From: a virus | Virus record (IMG/VR): IMGVR_UViG_3300032245_001447 | Coordinates: 1 to 23,620 of that record | Reading direction: 5' to 3' (one strand) | Length of the DNA stretch: 23,620 nucleotides | In this document: piece by piece, positions 8,747 to 23,620 of the stretch | Layout of the letters: each line of letters begins with the position of its first letter | Numbering within the stretch: position 1 is the first letter of the stretch | Made by a program: the position numbers and the translations under genes | The notes under the pieces: model-generated | The model's input: only the letters and a program-made list of their open reading frames with translations | Told to the model about the DNA's origin: nothing | Database searches by the model: none

Positions 8747-9742
8747 TTAGGCTAAGTCTCTCATACCAAGTGGATTCTCTTTTGAGAACTTGCCCCAGTT
8801 CTTCCCGGCTTGGGCCTCAGATTTCATCGTAAAGTTTATGCCATCTCGGCCTGTGAGAGAAATGGCGAGGCATTCTTGCATGAGCTTCGCCGTGTCAGTG
8901 ACAATCCCATCTGGAACCAGCGCCAGAAAAGAGTCATGTTTATTGTTAATCGCCGGTAATGTTTTGAGTGGTCGCTCGTTGTTATAGCGGTTGACTGCGA
9001 GGTGTGTGATACAGCCCACGGTGGACTGAGGAACCCATGAGATGCCTTCCCGGATATAAGAGTCAGTAATAGTACGCTCGAACCGGCGTGGATATCCAAA
9101 CAGATTACGGAGCTGACGGTTAGTTCTAATTTGAAATTCAATTTCATCTTGCCATTCTATGATTTCTGGGAATAGGGACGCGAAGAAGCCGAGAAAAGTT
9201 TTACATTCTTGGAGACTTAAAGTCAAAGTACCGTGACTTTGCTTGAGAGTCTGAAGCTGAAAGGTCCGCTCACGCATCCTGTAGGATGAAGCGTGGCAAA
9301 CCATCTTGCCGATCTTGTATTCTTTATCTGAGGATTTGATTGCTTTGTCGAGGGGTTTCCAATCTTTGTCTTGCTTAAGTTCGGTGGGCGATAGGGATTT
9401 CCAATAGCTCGGTGATTTACCGGCGAGAGGCCATTCGTTCTGCATCTGCTCACAGAAGATATGAAGCGCGATGAAGGTATGGGGTTTGATCCCGACGTTG
9501 AAGAGTTCTCTATAGCGGCCGGGGCGCGTGAGGTTGGCGACAATAAGAGCCTCAGCGCCGCTTTGATCGCATTGCACGAATGTGTGGCCCGGCGGGGCGA
9601 TGTAAATATCAAGAGCTTCTTTGTCTGGATTCTGCAGATTCGCTCCGTAGTCGCCAAGAAATTGTCCAGAGGCGAGACGGAAGGAGCCAGTCCCGGCGAC
9701 CTTAAGTGAGGTCAGACAGTGGATGTGTGGTTGTTGGGGCAT
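8747..9742 (-). CDS. polA: Family A DNA polymerase, polymerase-domain half of a split enzyme (331 aa)
   Basis: The ORF contains only the palm and fingers of a PolA-type enzyme. It begins at the segment before motif A (HIHCLTSLKVAGTGSFRLAS and NLQNP). Motif A is CDQSGAEAL with D59 and E64, motif B is the KIGKMVCHASSYRM region around 143-155, and motif C is KHDS with H269 and D270. The exonuclease and thumb are in a separate ORF at 10600-12030. The two ORFs meet at exactly complementary positions of the family, so they probably form one enzyme from two chains. The ATG at 9742 starts three bases after the ligase stop, with no Shine-Dalgarno site, so coupling is likely. The usual motif A arginine is replaced by leucine, and motif C has Ser instead of the E. 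coli Glu. Confidence 0.85.
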   Translation of the reverse strand: MPQQPHIHCLTSLKVAGTGSFRLASGQFLGDYGANLQNPDKEALDIYIAPPGHTFVQCDQSGAEALIVANLTRPGRYRELFNVGIKPHTFIALHIFCEQMQNEWPLAGKSPSYWKSLSPTELKQDKDWKPLDKAIKSSDKEYKIGKMVCHASSYRMRERTFQLQTLKQSHGTLTLSLQECKTFLGFFASLFPEIIEWQDEIEFQIRTNRQLRNLFGYPRRFERTITDSYIREGISWVPQSTVGCITHLAVNRYNNERPLKTLPAINNKHDSFLALVPDGIVTDTAKLMQECLAISLTGRDGINFTMKSEAQAGKNWGKFSKENPLGMRDLA

Positions 9743-9745
9743 ATG

Positions 9746-10597
9746 TTAAACGTCATCGCGCCATCCGACAAACGACGCATTGAACGGGCGACCGTCGTCG
9801 GTGAGGTTGAGATATTTGATCGTTGCTTTCTTCTGGAAGTGATAGTTTGGGGTAATGAATTCCTCACGTTCCTCATCCGTAAAGCCCGTCCCGACTTCGA
9901 AGCGCACGCCCTTTGATGTGATAAACTCAAGCGCGCCCAGCTTACCTTTGCACTTGCCTTCATCAGAGACGACGCGCCCAATGCATTCGAACTCTGCGTC
10001 GAGGAAAGCCTTGCGCTTCTGCAGGTTCATCGTCGAGCGCTCCTTTGTGCCCTGTGGCATATAGGAACCGAAGACGCTCTTGAGCATTTGGCCTTCATAA
10101 GATTGATCAAGATAGTCATGATAGCACATATCCAGTTCAATCCGCGTTTTGCAGATAGACCACTGAATTGGGCGGATGTTAGCCGTCTTGCCTTTGCTAT
10201 CTGCAAAGATCTTATCAAGCAAGAGCATGCGCGTAAGAGCGTTATACTTAGGCTCTACGAGATCGAATGCACGAAACTCGATAAGTTCTGCATCCTGTCC
10301 CGGCTCGATACGAGACACAGCCACGGCGGCGTTGATCTTCTGCAGACTCATCCCGTGACAATACAACTCGCCATCGAGTATGTAATCCGTTGTGGGCGGA
10401 ATGATATGAGCAAGGACGGCATCATTCCATCGCTTCCCGTCGCGTGAATAAAAACCAGAGCCGGGAATGTACATGCATCTCAGGCCATTCAGCTTGGGCA
10501 TCGAGACGACATGACCGAACTTACTTGGGTCGTATATCCCAGCGCGCATAAAGGATGCGGCGATTTGCGGGTCTTTTTCTTTTGTATCTTTTTTCAT
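9746..10597 (-). CDS. ATP-dependent DNA ligase inserted between the two polymerase halves (283 aa)
   Basis: The nucleotidyltransferase motif I is PKLNGLR with Lys35 as the expected adenylation site (Asn replaces the common Asp of KxDG). Motif III-like DYILDGELY, motif IV-like YEGQMLK and motif V-like LQKRKAF follow in order, then a short C-terminal OB-fold-like part (ECIGRVVSDEGKCKGKLGALEF). Length fits small phage ATP-dependent ligases. I chose the ATG at 10597, two bases after the stop of the exonuclease ORF, with GGGA nine bases upstream; an in-frame GTG at 10618 is a weaker alternative. The gene sits between the exonuclease half and the polymerase half of the split DNA polymerase and probably seals nicks during phage replication. 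Confidence 0.85.
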   Translation of the reverse strand: MKKDTKEKDPQIAASFMRAGIYDPSKFGHVVSMPKLNGLRCMYIPGSGFYSRDGKRWNDAVLAHIIPPTTDYILDGELYCHGMSLQKINAAVAVSRIEPGQDAELIEFRAFDLVEPKYNALTRMLLLDKIFADSKGKTANIRPIQWSICKTRIELDMCYHDYLDQSYEGQMLKSVFGSYMPQGTKERSTMNLQKRKAFLDAEFECIGRVVSDEGKCKGKLGALEFITSKGVRFEVGTGFTDEEREEFITPNYHFQKKATIKYLNLTDDGRPFNASFVGWRDDV

Positions 10598-10599
10598 AT

Positions 10600-12030
10600 T
10601 TAATATTCCCAAATCCACTGTTGAAATCCTAGCATACCTTTCAGCTTAACCATACGACGCATCTCGAAGATCACATCAATAGCGACGTTCTTCGGATGCT
10701 TGAGTTTGATTTTATAGAGAGCATCCCCGGCGACACTCGGCGCGCCTTTGTCTGTTGTCTTCTCTGGTTTGTATTTTAGTTGTTCATGTAGGTAACGAAC
10801 GACTTGATCCGGGCTGCCGGGATTGAGGTCAAAGCCTACGAGGATCTTGAGGATGCGGTTGAGCTGTTTGTATCTCTCTTCACACTTTCTGACGATGTAT
10901 TGTCGTTTGACGGGATCGAAGTGCATTCCGTGCAGTGACATGAAGGCGTAGTCTGCGAGGGATCGACTGGCTTGATCGACCGAATCTTGAAGTCCACGGT
11001 CCCTTGAGATGAGGTCAATCTGACCATAGTAAATCTCTCGGAGGACAATAACGTCTTTAACGTTGTAAGCGCGGAGCTGCTCAAATTGTGCTCGATTGCG
11101 AGGATCAAAGTTCCCTGCTTCATCTTTATGGAAGGGTCTGTTGCTATAGATAGTTGCTTGATGGGCCAGAGACTTCTCGGCCTCAGGGAATATGCGATGC
11201 CCTGCGACCATGGTGTCATAGATATCATGGCCGAAAGGAATTTTGTAGAAGGCGGCGAGGAAGCATAGGTCAAAGAGGGCGTTGTGTATGACGACTCTTC
11301 TTTTCTTTAACTCTCTTATGAAGCGCGCAAAGAAAACCACACCCACATTAAGATTGCCGCCCCAATCGTACACAGGAACAGAATAAACAGGACTCTCTCC
11401 GCACGCGATGGCGAGGCACGTAAGGGTGTTGGTCTTAGGATGAGTCTCGATGTCGAAGAAGATAGGGCCGTCGTAGTCGAAGACACTTGTGCATTCGGCT
11501 GCTCTTTGGCAGATGACGGTTTGTGGTTCAGGTTGAACTTTTTCGGGGTCATAAGTTAGGAGTTTCTTGATGTCTTGTGCGAACCAAAAGCTGTAGTTAC
11601 TGCGCTTCGTCGGGGATGTGCTCTTGCCATCGTCTTTATCTAGGATGTCTTCGCCGTCATTGTCTCCCTCCAAAGCGTCTTCCATGCCCCATGCGTCGAC
11701 GCAGTCTTGAGGCCAGTAAGTAACGATGTATTGGGTTTTGTTTGGAGAGAGATAGACGACGCCGCGAAAGGCGTCTAGGGTTTTTCCTTTAGCTGCTGGT
11801 AGATAATCAAGGCTTTTAGCTCCGGCGAATATGATCTTTGTGATGCCGCTTGGTTTGTTTGCGCCTTTGAAGAAGTCGTCGGCGAAGGTGACGAAGACTT
11901 GCTCCGAAGAATCAAGATCAATGGCGTGAGCAGCAAGAACAGAACGAACGAAATCACCAGCAGGGCCAAGCAGTATTCCGTTGTTTTCTTTATCAAAGCG
12001 CGAAGGTCCATGGAGAACGAGGGCTATCAT
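10600..12030 (-). CDS. DNA polymerase exonuclease half with an N-terminal UDG-like domain (476 aa)
   Basis: Residues 1 to about 165 resemble a family 4/5 uracil-DNA glycosylase fold: HGPSRFDKENNGILLGPAG, then IIFAGAKSLDYL, RGVVY, TYWPQDC and FAQDIKKLL. The catalytic motifs look degenerate (WPQ where HPS is expected). A DEDD 3'-5' exonuclease follows: Exo I FFDIETH (D193, E195), Exo II VIHNALFDL (D254) and Exo III YNVKD (D326). The last part (NPGSPDQVVRYL to RMVKLKGML) matches the thumb and palm start of family A polymerases, and the ORF stops there. The rest of the polymerase is at 8747-9742. The ATG at 12030 has no Shine-Dalgarno site and follows a 158-base gap with three hairpins. Confidence 0.8.
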   Translation of the reverse strand: MIALVLHGPSRFDKENNGILLGPAGDFVRSVLAAHAIDLDSSEQVFVTFADDFFKGANKPSGITKIIFAGAKSLDYLPAAKGKTLDAFRGVVYLSPNKTQYIVTYWPQDCVDAWGMEDALEGDNDGEDILDKDDGKSTSPTKRSNYSFWFAQDIKKLLTYDPEKVQPEPQTVICQRAAECTSVFDYDGPIFFDIETHPKTNTLTCLAIACGESPVYSVPVYDWGGNLNVGVVFFARFIRELKKRRVVIHNALFDLCFLAAFYKIPFGHDIYDTMVAGHRIFPEAEKSLAHQATIYSNRPFHKDEAGNFDPRNRAQFEQLRAYNVKDVIVLREIYYGQIDLISRDRGLQDSVDQASRSLADYAFMSLHGMHFDPVKRQYIVRKCEERYKQLNRILKILVGFDLNPGSPDQVVRYLHEQLKYKPEKTTDKGAPSVAGDALYKIKLKHPKNVAIDVIFEMRRMVKLKGMLGFQQWIWEY

Positions 12031-12045
12031 TAGGTGGTTAATTTA

Positions 12046-12080
12046 AGAGAAAAGAAAAGGCAGACTATTTCCGGTCTGCC
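12046..12080 (-). terminator. Intrinsic terminator upstream of the polymerase exonuclease gene
   Basis: On the minus strand GGCAGAC and GTCTGCC (12074-12080 and 12059-12065) form a 7-bp perfect stem around an 8-base loop, followed directly by TTTTCTTTTCTC. It is only 16 bases before the ATG of the polymerase exonuclease gene, so it should limit how much transcription from the ssDNA-binding gene reaches the polymerase. Confidence 0.75.
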
Positions 12081-12107
12081 AGCGGGCGAGTTGGGATGTA
12101 TGTCTTG

Positions 12108-12188: not shown

Positions 12189-12707
12189 TTAGAAGTTATC
12201 GGCAAGCGGCGAGGCAGCGCCTTTGACTTGAGAGAAGTCAAACTGGGTGTTGTAGCGCTTGATGATGGCCTCGCCATTCTCGTCGCGCTTGGCGAACTTG
12301 AGATCGCGGGAGTTCGACGGGTCATCGCTCACGTACTCAGGCTGCGACTGGACGAGCATGTTGAAGGCTTGGCCTTCGAGCGATTTGAGCGCATCAGAAA
12401 CGTCAATGTCGTTGTAGTCTTCGGGCAGACCATCATACAGACCAGTCACTTGCAGCGGCGTGGCGAGAAGTTCCAGCGCAGAGTCAACGCCGTTCTTGTT
12501 CTCAAGCATGATGTACATATTGCCCTTTGCACCGAGGGTCTTATAGGTCGTACCGGCGGCGGTGGCGGTCTCGGGCGCAACGATCTCGCACTCACAGACA
12601 ACCATCTTGAAACCCTTCGCGCTCTGGCGAGTCTCGGTCTTGTGGACGAGAACCTTATAGACGTTGGCGGGGATGAATCCGAGCTTGACTTCAGTACCTT
12701 TTTTCAT
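12189..12707 (-). CDS. Putative phage single-stranded DNA-binding protein (172 aa)
   Basis: The N-terminal half reads as an OB-fold-like beta domain (GFIPANVYKVLVHKTETRQSAK and FKMVVCECEIVAPE), followed by a middle region with ALELLATPLQVTGLYDGLP and a charged C-terminal tail ending SPLADNF, comparable to the flexible tails of SSB proteins. It resembles DUF669-type and other phage ssDNA-binding proteins encoded beside Sak4-like recombinases. A RecA-fold ATPase is two genes upstream and the DNA polymerase is directly downstream. The ATG at 12707 follows an A-rich leader with no Shine-Dalgarno site. A candidate sigma-54 promoter lies 50 bases upstream and would give a leader of about 38 bases. 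Identification rests on fold impression and context, not on a diagnostic motif. Confidence 0.55.
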   Translation of the reverse strand: MKKGTEVKLGFIPANVYKVLVHKTETRQSAKGFKMVVCECEIVAPETATAAGTTYKTLGAKGNMYIMLENKNGVDSALELLATPLQVTGLYDGLPEDYNDIDVSDALKSLEGQAFNMLVQSQPEYVSDDPSNSRDLKFAKRDENGEAIIKRYNTQFDFSQVKGAASPLADNF

Positions 12708-12756
12708 TTTATGTTTTATGTTTTATTGTTAATCTAACACCGACAAATGGGAGGGA

Positions 12757-12771
12757 GCTTTCTGTGGGCCA
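12757..12771 (-). promoter_or_regulatory. Candidate sigma-54 promoter for the ssDNA-binding gene
   Basis: Minus strand TGGCCCACAGAAAGC followed by TCCCTCC, with GG-N10-GC spacing. It lies in the 68-base gap before the ssDNA-binding gene. Its upstream flank GAGCCTAAACTT includes the stop codon of the preceding gene and parallels the flank of the site at 8729. Confidence 0.6.
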
Positions 12772-12775
12772 AAGT

Positions 12776-14748: not shown

Positions 14749-15189
14749 TTAGCTCATCCTGCTGTTCGAGGCGGGCGCCTCACAGTCGCACTTAGCCCTT
14801 TGCTTGAGTTTATATACGCGCTGCTCGCTCTCGTCGGCCAGGCCTTGGAGGAAGTTCAGCGTGCCGCTTGAAGATCCTTTGCAACAAGAGTCGATTTCTT
14901 TTTGCACGCGGGTCTCGATCTCAAGGAAGATGTTGGGCCACTTGTCAATAGGTTCCAGATCACAGAACCATTTGGCCAGATCGGCAGCTTGAATATTTCC
15001 GCCTGAGATATCACACTTCTCGCCCAGTCCGATCATGCGCTCGATGACAGAGTCATAAGCTTCTTCGTAGGTGCCATAGAGTTCTCCAAGATACTCATGA
15101 TCCTCGAAGAACGTTGGGCCTTGAACGGTATTGTGTTTCTCGTGCGCGGTAAGTTGGGCCGCCCGGAATAATGTAGCTAAGTTATGCAT
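14749..15189 (-). CDS. Dps-like ferritin-fold protein (146 aa)
   Basis: The segment EKHNTVQGPTFFEDHE followed by LGELYGTYEEAYDSVIERMIGLG parallels the Dps signature HWNVxGPxFxxxHE...D...AER. Taking the first His as ligand one, the second His is at +12, and Asp and Glu follow that at +15 and +19, exactly the spacing of H51, H63, D78 and E82 in E. coli Dps. The equivalent of D67 is Gly. The helical C-terminus (EIETRVQKEID and FLQGLADESEQRVYKLKQR) fits a four-helix bundle. A cysteine-bearing tail follows (CDCEAPAS). Such proteins bind or oxidise iron and may protect DNA. The ATG at 15189 has an A-rich leader and follows a large stem-loop. Confidence 0.65.
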   Translation of the reverse strand: MHNLATLFRAAQLTAHEKHNTVQGPTFFEDHEYLGELYGTYEEAYDSVIERMIGLGEKCDISGGNIQAADLAKWFCDLEPIDKWPNIFLEIETRVQKEIDSCCKGSSSGTLNFLQGLADESEQRVYKLKQRAKCDCEAPASNSRMS

Positions 15190-16360: not shown

Positions 16361-16561
16361 TTAAAACTCCATGAGGTGATAGACCCGCTTGCGAAGCTGG
16401 GCGACCTTGGCTCGTTTATCAAACAGATCGTGACGATAAGCGATGTCGTATCTGACCGATCCATCCTTGTCGTGGAATGAGTCGCAGTACTTTTCAAGAA
16501 AAGCGATGTGCTCCTCAGTGCGACGGATGCGCCAGTTGCGATACCATTTGAATGGGTTCAT
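16361..16561 (-). CDS. Small basic protein of unknown function (66 aa)
   Basis: The ATG at 16561 overlaps the preceding stop as ATGA. The protein is short, basic and aromatic (MNPFKWYRNWRIRRTEEHIAF, then DIAYRHDLFDKRAKVAQLRKRVYHL) and probably helical. No family is recognised. It ends three bases before the lysozyme-like gene and so shares its transcript. Confidence 0.5.
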   Translation of the reverse strand: MNPFKWYRNWRIRRTEEHIAFLEKYCDSFHDKDGSVRYDIAYRHDLFDKRAKVAQLRKRVYHLMEF

Positions 16562-16971
16562 AGAGGCGGCCAAAAGTATGGTAGGTTGTCTGGGATATTG
16601 GGGAACTTTGGACCATAGAACTCAGGTTTCTTCCGTATGAGATTACTCTGATGTGTCTTGTGTAGATAAGAGCCGAGCCAATGCGGCTGGATGATGTAGG
16701 GATATGTGAGAATCTCTTTCTCGAAATGCGGGAGGAGGTTATCAACGTAGCCACGAGCGCGGGCTTCTTGACATATTTTTATAGAGTAAAGACAAAGCCA
16801 AGCTGGATAGTCTCGCACCATCCGCACGGCGGGATGACTGCGCCAGCCCTCTGATTTACCTTGTATGGTGTTGAGGATTTGATAAGACTCGACCCTTTGT
16901 TTCATGAGGCGCTGTGTATCTAGCACGCGAGCAGACTGTTCGATGTCTGCGTAGGGTAAGAAGATTTGCAT
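16558..16971 (-). CDS. Pyrimidine-dimer DNA glycosylase family protein (137 aa)
   Basis: The protein starts MQIFLPYADIEQSARVLD and continues RLMKQRVESYQIL, GWRSHPAVRMV, YSIKICQEARARGYVDN, WLGSYLHKTHQSNLIRK and ends PYFWPP. This series (FLPY-d-sA--LD--RL-KQRvE, GW--HPav, RGy-D, H-SH-s-L-rK-P-Y, Y-WP) is the signature I know for the Pyr_excise/MSMEG_6728 family, related to T4 endonuclease V type pyrimidine-dimer glycosylases. Whether this branch excises dimers is not certain from sequence. The ATG at 16971 follows an A-rich leader without a Shine-Dalgarno site. It could repair ultraviolet damage in phage DNA. Confidence 0.75.
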   Translation of the reverse strand: MQIFLPYADIEQSARVLDTQRLMKQRVESYQILNTIQGKSEGWRSHPAVRMVRDYPAWLCLYSIKICQEARARGYVDNLLPHFEKEILTYPYIIQPHWLGSYLHKTHQSNLIRKKPEFYGPKFPNIPDNLPYFWPPL

Positions 16972-18698: not shown

Positions 18699-19538
18699 TT
18701 ATTCTCCTTTATCATATTCCGGCAATTCAATCTCCCCAAGTTCACGTTTTAGTAATAGGTTACGCAACGCACGGACATTCCCAAATGAGAACGTCTCGTC
18801 GCCGAAGTGTTCTCTCTCGCCAATAGGTGTCCAGTTTTCTTCTTCGATAATAGCGCTGGCGACACAGCGTATCTCTTGAACCCCTCGATCATACAACGAG
18901 CGAGTCTTCAAGCCGAGTTCGTTAATGCGGAAGTATAGATCCTCACGGAAAGATCCTTCCTTGACCATCTTCAACAAGTCTCTATTCGTCGCGAAGACAA
19001 ATTTACATTGAATCGGGACTGGATCGACTGCGCCGACGGGCAAGACTGTCTTATCCTGTAGGACACGCAGCAACTTAGCTTGATGCGACAGAGGCAACTC
19101 GCCTATCTCATCGAGGAAAGCAGTGCCCTTGCCGACTGCTCGGAGAAAGCCAACATCCCCGCGAGATTTAGCGCCGGTAAAAGCGCCGGGCATGTAGCCG
19201 AAGAGTTCGCTTTGGAAGAGAGTATCCGTAAGACCGGCCATGTTCATAGCCTTGAGAGGCTTGCGTTTGTGTGCAAGGATGCGAGCGATCAACTCCTTGC
19301 CTGTACCCGATGGGCCTTCGATCAGGACGTTGTATCTCTGCAAGCTTTCTTCCGCATATGTCATCGCAGAGTTGAGCATCTTCTTCGTGGCAGGATCTTG
19401 CGTGGCATAGGACGAAGCGACATTGTGGATACTGTTCTCCTTCAGCGCGTCGCCTGTGATCTTGAGGACATCTTTGCGGATGTTATCGAGAAAGCTGTCG
19501 GCGGCTGTGGTGTTAAGGACGTTTGCGTGGATGTTCAT
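18699..19538 (-). CDS. Minimal sigma-54 activator (bEBP-type AAA+ ATPase) without DNA-binding domain (279 aa)
   Basis: The protein is almost only the AAA+ core of NtrC/PspF-type activators. Walker A is GPSGTGKE (75-82), the sigma-54-contacting L1 loop SELFGYMPGAFTGA has GAFTGA at 118-123, Walker B is AFLDEIG (140-146), sensor I is FATNRDL (182-188), arginine-finger positions lie in SFREDLYFRI (R198, R204), and sensor II is GNVRALRN (253-260). It ends soon after sensor II and has no FIS-type HTH. Residues 1-50 do not look like a receiver domain. GAFTGA is diagnostic for contact with sigma-54. It is encoded 4 kb downstream of a sigma-54 homologue and in one operon with a small HTH protein. ATGA overlap couples it to the 60-residue gene. 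Confidence 0.9.
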   Translation of the reverse strand: MNIHANVLNTTAADSFLDNIRKDVLKITGDALKENSIHNVASSYATQDPATKKMLNSAMTYAEESLQRYNVLIEGPSGTGKELIARILAHKRKPLKAMNMAGLTDTLFQSELFGYMPGAFTGAKSRGDVGFLRAVGKGTAFLDEIGELPLSHQAKLLRVLQDKTVLPVGAVDPVPIQCKFVFATNRDLLKMVKEGSFREDLYFRINELGLKTRSLYDRGVQEIRCVASAIIEEENWTPIGEREHFGDETFSFGNVRALRNLLLKRELGEIELPEYDKGE

Positions 19539-19717
19539 TTTTTCTTTGGTTTATTTTTTCTCTTACTATATAAAGACGGACCGGGATCTTTTAGCTTATA
19601 AGACATGATAGCCTTGCGCGCGGCGGCGAGTTCATCTCTATCAAGATACACCTCGTCGACTGATCCTGTCTTATGTTTGGCTACGTATTGCTCACCGCGT
19701 TGATGAAAGCGGCTCAT
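19535..19717 (-). CDS. Small basic protein of unknown function (60 aa)
   Basis: The ORF is linked by ATGA overlaps to the HTH gene upstream and the activator gene downstream. The protein is MSRFHQRGEQYVAKHKTG, then EVYLDRDELAAARKAIMSY, ending in a strongly basic tail (SLYSKRKNKPKKK). The tail suggests nucleic-acid contact. No family is recognised. The strict coupling to both regulatory genes suggests a role in the same process. Confidence 0.6.
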   Translation of the reverse strand: MSRFHQRGEQYVAKHKTGSVDEVYLDRDELAAARKAIMSYKLKDPGPSLYSKRKNKPKKK

Positions 19718-20001
19718 TTTTTTAGCGTTAGTTTTCTTAGCTCACACTCTAGCTGGAAGATTCTATCGTGTTGCTTGTTGACGAGGTTAGTTAATTCAGA
19801 TATCTTGCGCTCATAGTATTCATACTTCGACGGCGTGCGCTGGATGTTTGAGATCAGACCGCGCGAGACTCCAAAGTGCTCTGCGATTTTAGATTGTGAT
19901 AGCTCTGGATGCTTTTGTATAAAGCTTCTGATCTCCTTCTTCTCTTCGATCGAGAGATAATAATTTTTTCTCTTTAGGTCTTGTATTTTTCTTTCGTACA
20001 T
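19714..20001 (-). CDS. Small HTH protein with a C-terminal coiled coil (95 aa)
   Basis: Residues 34-55 (LSQSKIAEHFGVSRGLISNIQR) form a clear helix-turn-helix. Residues about 61-92 (YYERKISELTNLVNKQ, then FQLECELRKL) look like a dimerising coiled coil. The ATG at 20001 lies six bases after the -10 element of a sigma-70-like promoter, so the message may be nearly leaderless. The gene begins a coupled series (this gene, the 60-residue gene, the activator). Because the activator lacks a DNA-binding domain, this protein could provide enhancer binding in trans, or simply repress its own promoter. Both are inferences. Confidence 0.7.
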   Translation of the reverse strand: MYERKIQDLKRKNYYLSIEEKKEIRSFIQKHPELSQSKIAEHFGVSRGLISNIQRTPSKYEYYERKISELTNLVNKQHDRIFQLECELRKLTLKK

Positions 20002-20043: not shown

Positions 20044-22218
20044 TCATGCCGCCTGTGCCTGAGGTTCGTCGTCCTCATCATCATCATCCTCGTCCGTCTC
20101 GATCACGCCCGTGGACTCAGCGACGGCGAGATCTTCTTCTGTTAGTTTAACGGCGGTCGCTCGATCACGAAGAGCTTTCTCTAGTTCGCCAGCGAGATCG
20201 ACATTTGAGGAGCCAATAGCGTCGACACTTTTCAACTTTCGTGCAAGCTTAGGTGCCATGTGGTCGCTGAGGATTGTGCCTTCTGGGACATAGATGTCTT
20301 GCGTTGTGTCGGTTAGAGTAGTGATGCGCACGCAGCGACCAAGAGCCTGTGCAAATTCCTCTGCCCAATAAGTCATCGTGCTCATGACCTTGCGGGGTTT
20401 GGTGTGGACGTAGCGATGATCTAGTGAGATACCTGTGCCGCCGGAGGATAGAGTGTAGATACAGAACTCCGTCTCTCCGTTGAGGAAAGCTTGCACGTTC
20501 TCATGGCGTTCCTTCTGGTTCTGATTGTGGAGCTTCATCTCTCTGAGCTTCTCATTCCTTTGTGCGAATGCATCCTTCGTCATCTCTCGGAAGATTCTTT
20601 CTGAGGTGTACTTGATACCTTTGTGGAAGGCGCGGAATTCTTCCTTCGTGATGCCGATGTCGTCTGCCTTAGGCTTTCGTGCCTCGTCTGGATTGTCGAG
20701 AATCCACATGCCCATCTTGGCCGCGATCTCTGCCGCGCGGGTTTCTGGAAGGAGATCCTCGGGCTTGATCTCTCGATTGCCACCCCAGATTAGAGAGATC
20801 TTTTCTTTCGTTAGACCTTTGCTCTTGAAGTATTCACTATCACATAGCTTCATCACTAGCTCCTTGAGCGTCTCTGTGAAGCGAATGGCAATGACTGGCG
20901 CATAGCCGTTTTGATGGGCATGAATTGCATCGGCGACCCAAGTGTCTACGGTTGCAAGCTCGGCCGCTCGGGCCATGACCATGAAGGCAACCATGACTTG
21001 ACCTTGTGGATCTATTGAGCGACCTGTGCGTTCGAGAGCTTCAAGATAATTCTTCATCGCGTTCTTGAGCATCGCTTTGTTCGCGGGGTCAGTGATCTCG
21101 AAGAGCTTGACTTTGTTGAGAGCCTTGACTTTCTGAGGATCGCCCGGCGGCTTGACGAAACGGTCGCCGATCGCAGCGCCCCAGCGTTCGAGAGCGGCGG
21201 CGTTAGCTTGACGGGGATCTGCGCCGAGTGTGAGAGTGCGCGCGAATTCTGGAAAGGTTTCTCTCGTCAAGGGTCGAGCGCCATATTGTAAACGCATTGC
21301 GATAGACATGAACATCGTGTCCCATACTGTTACGGCGGGCGTCGCAGAGGTAAAGACCCAAGTGATTTCTGGGAACTGAAGGAATGCTTCGAGATATTTT
21401 GTGCGCTTAGACTTCTCTTTCTTGATCTCCTGACACTCGTCGAGGATAATAAGCTTGGGCGCAGCGGACGCGGGCAGATTAAAGCGGATTACTTTAGTCG
21501 CTTGGCCGAAGACATCTACGACTTCCTCTTTGAAGAAGTTCCTGTTTTTCGCGGAGAAGACTTCGTTGTAAGACCATACATCTACAGCGAGTCCGACAGA
21601 TTCGAGACCTAGTTTCTTGAGTGTGTCACGGAAGTCTAAGACGACAGACTTTTTAGTCACTATCAGAATGGGCGGAAAGAGGCCGAGAAAATTACAGAAC
21701 TTCTGAGGGTCATGCTTTTGTAGCCACAGCGCGAGACCTGCGGCGATCCAGCTCTTACCCTTACCAGTGCCGAGTGGAACAAGAGAGCCATTGAGGTTCT
21801 TGTTATACAATACATCAAGCAGCGCCGCGATAGCTTTCTTCTGCTGGGGCTTGAACTCTAGCCCGTTGGGAAGCTTGATGTCGATTGTGCTATAGGTGCG
21901 CTTCTCTCTCAAGGCAAGCTCTTCCGCGAGACGAAGAGCTTCCTTTTGCTGGCGCGCTGGGGCTTGATTAACCCAGCCCTGTAGAAATCCCAACAACGTA
22001 GCATAGTCAAGTTTGACTGTTGGGATTACGGCAAGAGAGAGTTCCTTCTGGAGAAAGTCCCAATCAAATGGCTCTCTGCGATACAGATCAGTGAGCTTCT
22101 TAGCTTGCGCCCGGGCGGTCGTGAGGGCGGTCTGTTGAAGCCTGTCTTCTTTGCTTGTGTATTGTTCGGTTTGGACTGGGGCTTTCTTTATCCCCGAAGG
22201 AGTAGCGAATATGTTCAT
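20044..22218 (-). CDS. SF2 DNA helicase/translocase (724 aa)
   Basis: Motifs run in SF2 order: FKPQQKKAI (Q-motif-like, about 122-130), Walker A PLGTGKGKS (148-156), motif Ia-like PPILIVTKKSVV, motif II LIILDECQ (256-263), and motif III FTSATPA (289-295). In the second domain come TLSSGGTGISL and the motif VI-like EEFAQALGRCVRI. The overall pattern, with a GG-G--L and a Q-LGR-R ending, resembles the SNF2/strawberry-notch-like group. A very acidic tail (TDEDDDDEDDE) ends the protein. Such phage enzymes unwind or remodel DNA in replication or recombination. The ATG at 22218 has no Shine-Dalgarno site and nearly abuts the previous gene. Confidence 0.8.
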   Translation of the reverse strand: MNIFATPSGIKKAPVQTEQYTSKEDRLQQTALTTARAQAKKLTDLYRREPFDWDFLQKELSLAVIPTVKLDYATLLGFLQGWVNQAPARQQKEALRLAEELALREKRTYSTIDIKLPNGLEFKPQQKKAIAALLDVLYNKNLNGSLVPLGTGKGKSWIAAGLALWLQKHDPQKFCNFLGLFPPILIVTKKSVVLDFRDTLKKLGLESVGLAVDVWSYNEVFSAKNRNFFKEEVVDVFGQATKVIRFNLPASAAPKLIILDECQEIKKEKSKRTKYLEAFLQFPEITWVFTSATPAVTVWDTMFMSIAMRLQYGARPLTRETFPEFARTLTLGADPRQANAAALERWGAAIGDRFVKPPGDPQKVKALNKVKLFEITDPANKAMLKNAMKNYLEALERTGRSIDPQGQVMVAFMVMARAAELATVDTWVADAIHAHQNGYAPVIAIRFTETLKELVMKLCDSEYFKSKGLTKEKISLIWGGNREIKPEDLLPETRAAEIAAKMGMWILDNPDEARKPKADDIGITKEEFRAFHKGIKYTSERIFREMTKDAFAQRNEKLREMKLHNQNQKERHENVQAFLNGETEFCIYTLSSGGTGISLDHRYVHTKPRKVMSTMTYWAEEFAQALGRCVRITTLTDTTQDIYVPEGTILSDHMAPKLARKLKSVDAIGSSNVDLAGELEKALRDRATAVKLTEEDLAVAESTGVIETDEDDDDEDDEPQAQAA

Positions 22219-22219
22219 G

Positions 22220-22519
22220 TTATAGTAGTTTTGAGATCACTTCTTCAGCGTTCTTGAATCCGTATGCGGTTGGAGTTTTGCTGATGAGACTTACGTATTC
22301 GCTGAATACGATACTCTCGGCCGTGGGTTTGTCAAGTTGAGTGTAGGATCTGTTGATGTTGTCGCGTTGATTAAGAAGTGGCGTTAGCTTTTTCTGCAGA
22401 GCAAGCATCTTATCCTCCAGCTGTTGGCGTATCAAGACGTTCTTCTTGGTGGCTTTGTCCATTGCTTTCTTCAGGCGCAGGGATTCTTTGATTGTCTTCT
22501 GTTGTAGGGCTTTGTTCAT
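22220..22519 (-). CDS. Coiled-coil protein of unknown function; start uncertain (99 or 62 aa)
   Basis: From the ATG at 22519 the protein begins with a basic amphipathic helix (MNKALQQKTIKESLRLKKAM) and would overlap the upstream gene by 110 bases. An alternative ATG at 22408 lies just after that gene's stop with a well placed GGAGG and would give 62 residues starting MLALQKKLTPLLNQ. In the overlap the codon third positions are richer in G and C in this frame than in the upstream gene's frame, which favours the longer form, while the ribosome-binding site favours the shorter. No family is recognised. Confidence 0.5.
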   Translation of the reverse strand: MNKALQQKTIKESLRLKKAMDKATKKNVLIRQQLEDKMLALQKKLTPLLNQRDNINRSYTQLDKPTAESIVFSEYVSLISKTPTAYGFKNAEEVISKLL

Positions 22520-23093
22520 AGTTTAGGATGTTTCTTGTGTCTACGATTTTTAGTACTTCTTCGAGAGGGAAATAGCAGTTGATGTTGTTGAATGCGCCTT
22601 TGAGGGCGTCGTTGAGTTGGCGAGATTTATTAAGATAGACCTCTTCGCCCTGCGAAGTGATCGCGATGGCGACCTCGGTTGCCTTCTGTCTGTTGAAGAG
22701 CTTAGCTTTAGCGAGTGCATCACTGATCATCTCTACGCGGAGATCTTCCGCTTTCTTGCGGATGTAGGATATGTCAGAGGCAAGATGGTTTGCACGAAGG
22801 ATTCTGCGGCGTTCGTCGGAGAGGTTCCAATCGGTGCTGTCCCAGATGACAGAGTAAGAGAATCCGTCTTCGTTGATTCTCTGAATATGGAGATGCTCAC
22901 TTGCGCAGTGAGCCTTAACCCAGTCGGCTGTTTCATTTGTAGCAACAATCGCATGGGCAAGATTATTCCCGCCAGTTCGGCGGATGAAATGCCCTCGCTC
23001 TGCATCGACATGACAAGAGCACGATGGGAAGAGTAATCCCCAGAGTTCTTGCGGGGTGATTTCTTTTTGGTCGTCTTCATTTTGAGGAGGCAT
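22410..23093 (-). CDS. Protein of unknown function next to the sigma-54 gene (227 aa)
   Basis: The ATG at 23093 overlaps the end of the sigma-54 gene by 17 bases, so the two are translated together. The protein has an N-terminal part with a Cys pair (FPSCSCHVDAERGHF), a middle beta region (HIQRINEDGFSYSVIWDSTD), a helical stretch (ASDISYIRKKAEDLRVEMISDALAKAKLF) and a polar, probably disordered tail. I recognise no family. Coupling to sigma-54 makes a regulatory partner possible, but nothing in the sequence shows it. The last 110 bases overlap the next gene in another frame. Confidence 0.6.
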   Translation of the reverse strand: MPPQNEDDQKEITPQELWGLLFPSCSCHVDAERGHFIRRTGGNNLAHAIVATNETADWVKAHCASEHLHIQRINEDGFSYSVIWDSTDWNLSDERRRILRANHLASDISYIRKKAEDLRVEMISDALAKAKLFNRQKATEVAIAITSQGEEVYLNKSRQLNDALKGAFNNINCYFPLEEVLKIVDTRNILNYEQSPTTEDNQRIPAPEESNGQSHQEERLDTPTAGG

Positions 23094-23620
23094 AGACTTT
23101 CCTTAAGTGCGAGGGTTGAATACCTAGTTCTGCTCTGTATTTAGCGATTGTCCGGCGAGCGATTGTGTTCTTGAGGAGTGAGACAATATCCTCATCCGAG
23201 AGAGGGCGAGACTTATCTTCTCGTGAGATGATCTCTGCGATTTGATTTTTTATTGAGAGGTTACTTTGCATGGTGTTTTGTTCATGGTTTACGATAGCAC
23301 TGGTGAAGAAAAATCTTAGTTCATATGTCCCGCGCGGAGTAGAGATGTATTTGTTACAGACGGCGCGACTCACGGTGGTTTCGTGGATCTCACAGACCGT
23401 GGCGATCTGAGCCATCGTGAGAGGCTTGAGATCTTTGATCTGGCCGCTGCGGAAGAAGTCTTGTTGATAGTCTACGATCGCATTAGACACGCGGCCGAGG
23501 GTAGACTGGCGCTGCATGATAGATCGAATGAGGAACTTTCCCATCTTTACTTTCTCACGAACGAACTCACGCTCAGCGGGCTTGAGCTTGTGGAGATAGC
23601 TTAGAACGTGATCGTTGATC
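23077..23620 (-). CDS. rpoN: Sigma-54 (RpoN) homologue, C-terminal part (partial at right edge)
   Basis: The frame is open to the window edge, so at least 180 residues are seen and the true start lies outside. The order of segments is that of RpoN: LIRSIMQRQSTLGRVSNAIV, then YQQDFFRSG (core-binding region end), then LTMAQIATVCEIHETTVSRAVCNKY and STPRGTYELRFFF, the conserved HTH region. Next is KSRPLSDEDIVSLLKN, then the RpoN box ARRTIAKYRA (consensus ARRTVAKYRE), which reads the -24 element. The turn before the RpoN box is about three residues shorter than in my recollection of typical RpoN (where QGIxx is expected). Region I, which meets the activator, is outside the window. The gene is in the phage operon, 17 bases overlapping the next gene. 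Confidence 0.92.
   Translation of the reverse strand, partial: INDHVLSYLHKLKPAEREFVREKVKMGKFLIRSIMQRQSTLGRVSNAIVDYQQDFFRSGQIKDLKPLTMAQIATVCEIHETTVSRAVCNKYISTPRGTYELRFFFTSAIVNHEQNTMQSNLSIKNQIAEIISREDKSRPLSDEDIVSLLKNTIARRTIAKYRAELGIQPSHLRKVYASSK

Follow-up and report, generated by a model that had tools for sequence, protein, structure and literature searches.

Towards the end of a 23,620-nucleotide stretch of viral DNA (positions 1 to 23,620 of IMG/VR record IMGVR_UViG_3300032245_001447, referred to here as the window), the gene for a small AAA+ protein forms a chain of overlapping genes with two short neighbours, and a run of genes on the same strand leads back to a sigma-54 gene at the contig end. 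The features discussed below are the following:

12189..12707, minus strand: SSB-like gene (172 aa), downstream of the next site; weak PHROG match to ssDNA-binding proteins (E 0.045)
12756..12772, minus strand: sigma-54-type promoter site TTGGCCCACAGAAAGCT (GG-N10-GC), upstream of the SSB-like gene
18699..19538, minus strand: predicted AAA+ sigma-54 activator, core only (279 aa, GAFTGA), assigned by Pfam PF00158 and PDB profiles
19170..19187, minus strand: GAFTGA codons (L1 loop, predicted contact to sigma-54 region I)
19535..19717, minus strand: 60-aa basic protein, in four-base overlaps with the HTH and ATPase genes; kept in relatives
19714..20001, minus strand: 95-aa HTH protein ending in a long helix; putative regulator or DNA-binding partner
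20044..22218, minus strand: SF2 helicase gene (724 aa), between the sigma-54 and the HTH/activator genes; Pfam ResIII 2.4e-7, PHROG DNA helicase
22220..22519, minus strand: 99-aa gene in the same run of genes
22410..23093, minus strand: 227-aa gene overlapping the end of the sigma-54 gene
23077..23619, minus strand: C-terminal part of sigma-54 (RpoN), with the DNA-binding domain (DBD) and RpoN box ARRTIAKYRAEL; Pfam Sigma54_DBD 4.4e-50

The activator gene and its neighbours

The sequence-only reading of this locus described a 279-residue AAA+ protein that keeps all motifs of sigma-54 activators, including GAFTGA, and has neither a receiver nor a C-terminal HTH; the open reading frame, the Pfam search and the motif alignment bear out this description. 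The Pfam Sigma54_activat profile matches residues 47-210 (E 2.4e-49; 168 bits, cut-off 20), and the PDB profiles matched are those of the AAA+ cores of NtrC1, ZraR, FleQ and PspF. The nucleotide motifs (Walker A GPSGTGKE, residues 75-82; switch Asn, 99; Walker B GTAFLDEIGE, 138-147), GAFTGA (118-123), sensor I (ATNR, 183-186), the arginine fingers (REDLYFR, 198-204) and sensor II (GNVRALRN, 253-260), all read from the sequence, are invariant across 14 aligned sequences, the ATPase being 91-97% identical to its 13 relatives in this set. Activator relatives (92-99% identity) occur at 29 viral loci. When the window was searched with a back-translated GAFTGA pattern, there was a single match, as against none in 100 shuffled versions. 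Since the AlphaFold2 model was poor (pLDDT 48, shallow alignment) and was set aside, the fold of the activator rests on sequence profiles.

The protein consists of little more than this core. Only about 46 residues, with no domain match, lie ahead of the AAA+ match, and about 19 residues, with no HTH_8 match, follow sensor II; a Pfam profile search found no receiver, GAF or HTH_8 domain. Thus, both the N-terminal regulatory domain and the C-terminal DNA-binding domain, which are usual but not universal in enhancer-binding proteins (bEBPs), are absent.

The 95-residue HTH/coiled-coil protein and the 60-residue basic protein that the earlier reading placed beside the ATPase were recovered as well, and the HTH/60-aa and 60-aa/ATPase junctions are both ATGA-type four-base overlaps. 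The 60-aa protein matched no known family in a Pfam search. In the 95-aa protein, the HTH is weak by family search (HTH_24/Sigma70_r4, approx. 1e-3); AlphaFold2 (pLDDT 82.5) predicts helices at residues 18-30, 36-43 and 47-55 followed by a long helix at 60-94, i.e., an HTH plus what is likely a coiled coil, and Foldseek with this model returned no match at E 0.001. Related phages keeping the ATPase with neither an HTH partner nor sigma-54 sites would have spoken against the sequence-only reading; what is found instead is an HTH gene beside the activator in every relative in which the region is covered, usually two genes upstream with the overlapping 60-aa gene between, and the sites are present (see below). 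Nonetheless, the HTH proteins are only about 42-55% identical between genomes whose ATPases are 94-95% identical, one clade (L007/L027) encodes a 55-aa version without the coiled coil, and several relatives have extra genes inserted between the HTH and ATPase genes. In three loci (L021, L022 (G010) and L023), the 60-aa and ATPase genes are preceded by two tandem copies of the HTH gene. A sigma-70-like site ahead of the HTH gene (TTGATT-N16-TATACT) was rejected: it is confined to the window's own clade, and sigma-70-like matches are near chance overall.

Elsewhere in the window, a family A DNA polymerase appears to be split between two genes (8747-12030, minus strand), the N half (10600-12030) corresponding to positions 567-947 of PHROG 17 and the C half (8747-9742) to positions 963-1232. 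An ATP-dependent DNA ligase gene (9746-10618) lies between the halves, and a relative (G001) has a further 180-aa gene there. Just before the gene for the N half, at about 12031-12100 (minus strand), a hairpin GGCAGACCGGAAATAGTCTGCC, kept in most relatives, is followed by a T-rich tract and is likely a terminator. Also on the minus strand are genes for a ferritin-like protein of 146 aa (14749-15189; Pfam 4.5e-5, just below the cut-off) and a denV-like pyrimidine dimer DNA glycosylase (16558-16971; Pfam 3.7e-22).

A phage-encoded sigma-54

The sigma-54 gene was overlooked in the earlier reading. It lies on the activator's strand, approx. 3.5 kb upstream, and its open reading frame continues to the very end of the contig, so that only the DBD falls inside the window and the N-terminus beyond it. 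Wherever the upstream region is covered in relatives, sigma-54 is likewise encoded on the activator's strand, approx. 3.5-4.6 kb upstream. The full-length proteins comprise about 430 residues, with the activator-interacting domain (AID, 2e-11), the core-binding domain (CBD, 5e-18) and the DBD (5e-50), all three above the cut-off in three relatives, and an alignment spanning 424 residues links them to sigma-54 in solved structures of its complex with RNAP (5e-53). The phage group conserves all three domains as well as the RpoN box, and close relatives suggest that the window's own phage also encodes a full-length sigma-54. Six relatives are large (49-59 kb), and a motif search found exactly one RpoN box/sigma-54 and one GAFTGA ATPase in each; one of these genomes, G006, is probably complete, judging by its terminal repeat of 127 bp.

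When IMG/VR was scanned with a back-translated RpoN box, a pattern that altered boxes could escape, 24 contigs were recovered, 21 of which belong to this phage group. In two of the others (L096 and L104), the sigma-54 genes look bacterial, and the third (L113) was discounted as probably a flank, since no long frame for sigma-54 was recovered from it. Matches to sigma-54 and to the activator in INPHARED were also discarded, being mostly bacterial-looking contigs inside "phage" assemblies rather than true phage genes.

Among the phyla sampled, the phage sigma-54 is closest to that of Verrucomicrobiota (best match 1.3e-64, about 42% identity; Pseudomonadota, 4e-49 at best). A quick tree with few phyla sampled places the phage proteins as one clade, on a very long stem, beside the sampled Verrucomicrobiota (SH-aLRT 87), most of which carry sigma-54. 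This suggests Verrucomicrobiota as a possible source of the gene or a possible host.

Sigma-54-type sites and the role of the HTH protein

The strict bacterial consensus (TGGCAC-N5-TTGCW) showed no excess over control and was replaced by a matrix and a comparative search. A generic sigma-54 matrix, compiled without reference to the phage genomes, ranked CTGGCATATCGTTAGCA upstream of the capsid-like gene first in 6/6 large relatives, and further matches lay before rpoN; total match counts were near the shuffle level in most genomes, the signal residing in position and conservation. A refined strict motif gave 21 matches (2.5 expected), and in a spacing control 26 sites were found at GG-N10-GC as compared with 0-10 (mostly 1-3) at other spacings. 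GG-N10-GC is present upstream of rpoN in 16/16 genomes, of a 214-aa gene (g214) in 15/15, of the SSB-like gene in 19/19, the window included, of the TerS-like gene in 9/9 and of the capsid-like gene in 8/8. This amounts to 67/67 upstream regions of five genes vs. 11/150 for 12 control genes, a contrast rather than a p-value, as the five genes were chosen after the sites had been seen and the genomes are related, so that the counts are not independent. The window's own site, though conserved in all 19 genomes, is by itself not above chance within the window. It should be noted that the names TerS-like, capsid-like and SSB-like reflect gene order together with weak or no family matches, and that the large terminase was named by length and order, with only an uncharacterised PHROG matched. 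Where bacteria have TTGCW, the -12 half of the phage sites is ARGCW/TGCT (RGCW-like), and TGGCCC occurs in the SSB site.

The presence in these phages of both a full sigma-54 gene and conserved promoters of the sigma-54 type strongly supports the identification of the 279-aa ATPase as a sigma-54 activator. The activator gene has no GG-N10-GC directly upstream (0/23), and its transcripts must therefore start elsewhere, either at rpoN, with read-through, or at another promoter. Terminator-like stem-loops immediately precede the promoters of g214 and rpoN, which makes these look like insulated units. In nearly all of 16 aligned genomes (e.g., L030 near 5100), an inverted repeat (TGCCAA-NNN-TTGGCA) overlaps the -24 element of rpoN and could be an operator. 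It is often preceded in relatives by a second palindrome, TTGGCAT-N7-RTGCCAA. A common enhancer was sought near the five promoters; no 12-14-mer beyond T-rich/A-rich words is shared, a search that short or degenerate sites could escape.

How the HTH protein fits into such a system can be answered in more than one way. An answer with a fair claim, although we would put it somewhat below an even chance, is that the short proteins are separate regulators: the HTH protein would be an autoregulator acting at the rpoN palindrome with the effect of a brake or timer, the 60-aa protein would modulate the ATPase in the way PspA modulates PspF, and the ATPase would act from solution. Conservation of the palindrome across the -24 element is consistent with this, as is the duplication or truncation of the HTH gene while the ATPase stays unchanged. 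However, the palindrome might just as well serve as a further contact for sigma-54 or reflect a chance reuse of the -24 element.

More doubtful is the arrangement favoured by the sequence-only reading, a classical activator divided in two, in which the 95-aa protein would bind DNA near the promoters and deliver the ATPase, the two together making up one classical bEBP. The constant company of the genes, the modelled HTH with its long helix and the inverted repeat at rpoN would all fit, and FleT of Rhodobacter, which is without both extra domains, works in complex with FleQ (PMC7277832). However, the HTH is not of the HTH_8/Fis type found in classical activators, the search near the five promoters found no shared upstream element, the palindrome being confined to rpoN, and the divergence of the HTH protein beside a nearly constant ATPase, its loss of the long helix in the 55-aa versions and the inserted genes also count against the arrangement. 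Thus, the earlier proposal of a sigma-54 activator gains from the phage sigma-54 and the conserved promoters, whereas there is some evidence against its division into two proteins. An activator working from solution, which the same reading had offered as its other option, is at least as likely, and the HTH protein may be a partner or a regulator.

It is highly improbable that the activator acts mainly on host sigma-54 polymerase and host promoters, with the phage sigma-54 as a decoy or anti-host factor. GAFTGA activators are able to act on heterologous sigma-54, and sigma-54 is present in most of the Verrucomicrobiota sampled; nevertheless, the phage has conserved sites before its own genes, including rpoN, and its sigma-54 retains all three domains and the RpoN box. 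Least credible of all is a replication or packaging factor that has retained GAFTGA by chance, for although a helicase gene separates sigma-54 from the activator in the window, and the gut phage MT121960 has a lone GAFTGA ATPase (L116:19773-20687, 304 aa) whose neighbours are primase- and helicase-like genes, its 41-kb fragment showing no sigma-54, every sigma-54-remodelling residue is conserved here and sigma-54 and promoters co-occur.

The proposed switch among known systems

Very probably, then, this group of approx. 50-kb phages, whose virion genes appear podophage-like from their order, carries a complete sigma-54 transcription system of which the 279-aa ATPase is the activator half. We also consider it likely that the system is self-contained, comprising sigma-54, a minimal activator and phage-specific promoters, that of rpoN included, and that it acts as an ATP-gated, self-amplifying middle/late switch, possibly with a detached HTH partner. 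From the genes, motifs and conserved sites we infer the following course. The phage sigma-54 would bind host core RNA polymerase and hold it in a closed complex at the -24/-12 promoters, and the AAA+ protein, assembled into a ring, would engage region I of sigma-54 with its GAFTGA loops and open the promoter by ATP hydrolysis. With a sigma-54-type promoter in front of rpoN itself, and the activator gene following a few genes later, the system would amplify itself once started; the proposal covers this amplification and not the production of the first sigma-54. The SSB-like, TerS-like and capsid-like transcription units would then be switched on. The activator has no receiver, so that its control probably lies in its synthesis and not in a signal; having no DNA-binding domain, it would either act from solution or be recruited by a second protein, perhaps the HTH protein.

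Within the context of known activators, a FleT-like architecture is the best reading. According to a 2020 review, FleT is the only known bEBP without both regulatory and DNA-binding domains (PMC7175178); in Rhodobacter/Cereibacter sphaeroides this AAA+ core is tied to a dedicated sigma-54 copy and acts with FleQ (PMC7277832). FleQ, however, is a second bEBP, whereas the six large phage relatives each have a single GAFTGA protein, the motif search having found no FleQ-like partner with a DNA-binding domain. Helicobacter FlgR and Chlamydia CtcC also lack a DNA-binding domain (PMC3162934, where a cited title describes FlgR as enhancer-independent), but both have a receiver (PMC7175178). The group 4 bEBPs PspF and HrpR/S, which are controlled by a protein in trans (PMC7175178), resemble the phage activator in having no receiver and differ from it in keeping the C-terminal HTH.

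The phage sigma-54 shares AID, CBD, DBD, the RpoN box and GG-N10-GC promoters with its bacterial counterparts, but it is shorter, at best about 42% identical to those sampled, and accompanied by sites with an RGCW-like -12 element. To our knowledge, the phage sigma factors described so far are sigma-70-like, and a search of the open-access literature yielded no description of a sigma-54 encoded by a virus. T4 gp55 and the phiEco32-like and group 2 jumbo factors likewise redirect host RNA polymerase to phage promoters; however, they belong to the sigma-70 family or are minimal HTH proteins and open promoters without an ATPase, whereas here the unrelated sigma-54 family would operate with a dedicated one. 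A review of jumbo phages lists sigma factors of the RpoD type or minimal HTH proteins and does not mention sigma-54 (PMC7824862).

If the proposal is true, a phage carries the whole of a gene switch that has hitherto been known in bacteria alone, and viruses have taken over ATP-dependent, activator-gated transcription as a whole. The system would offer a minimal natural activator of 279 aa, without a sensor or DNA-binding domain, together with a defined partner sigma and approx. five conserved promoters. Thus, it would be well suited to asking whether activators work from solution and how sigma-54 and its activator co-evolve.
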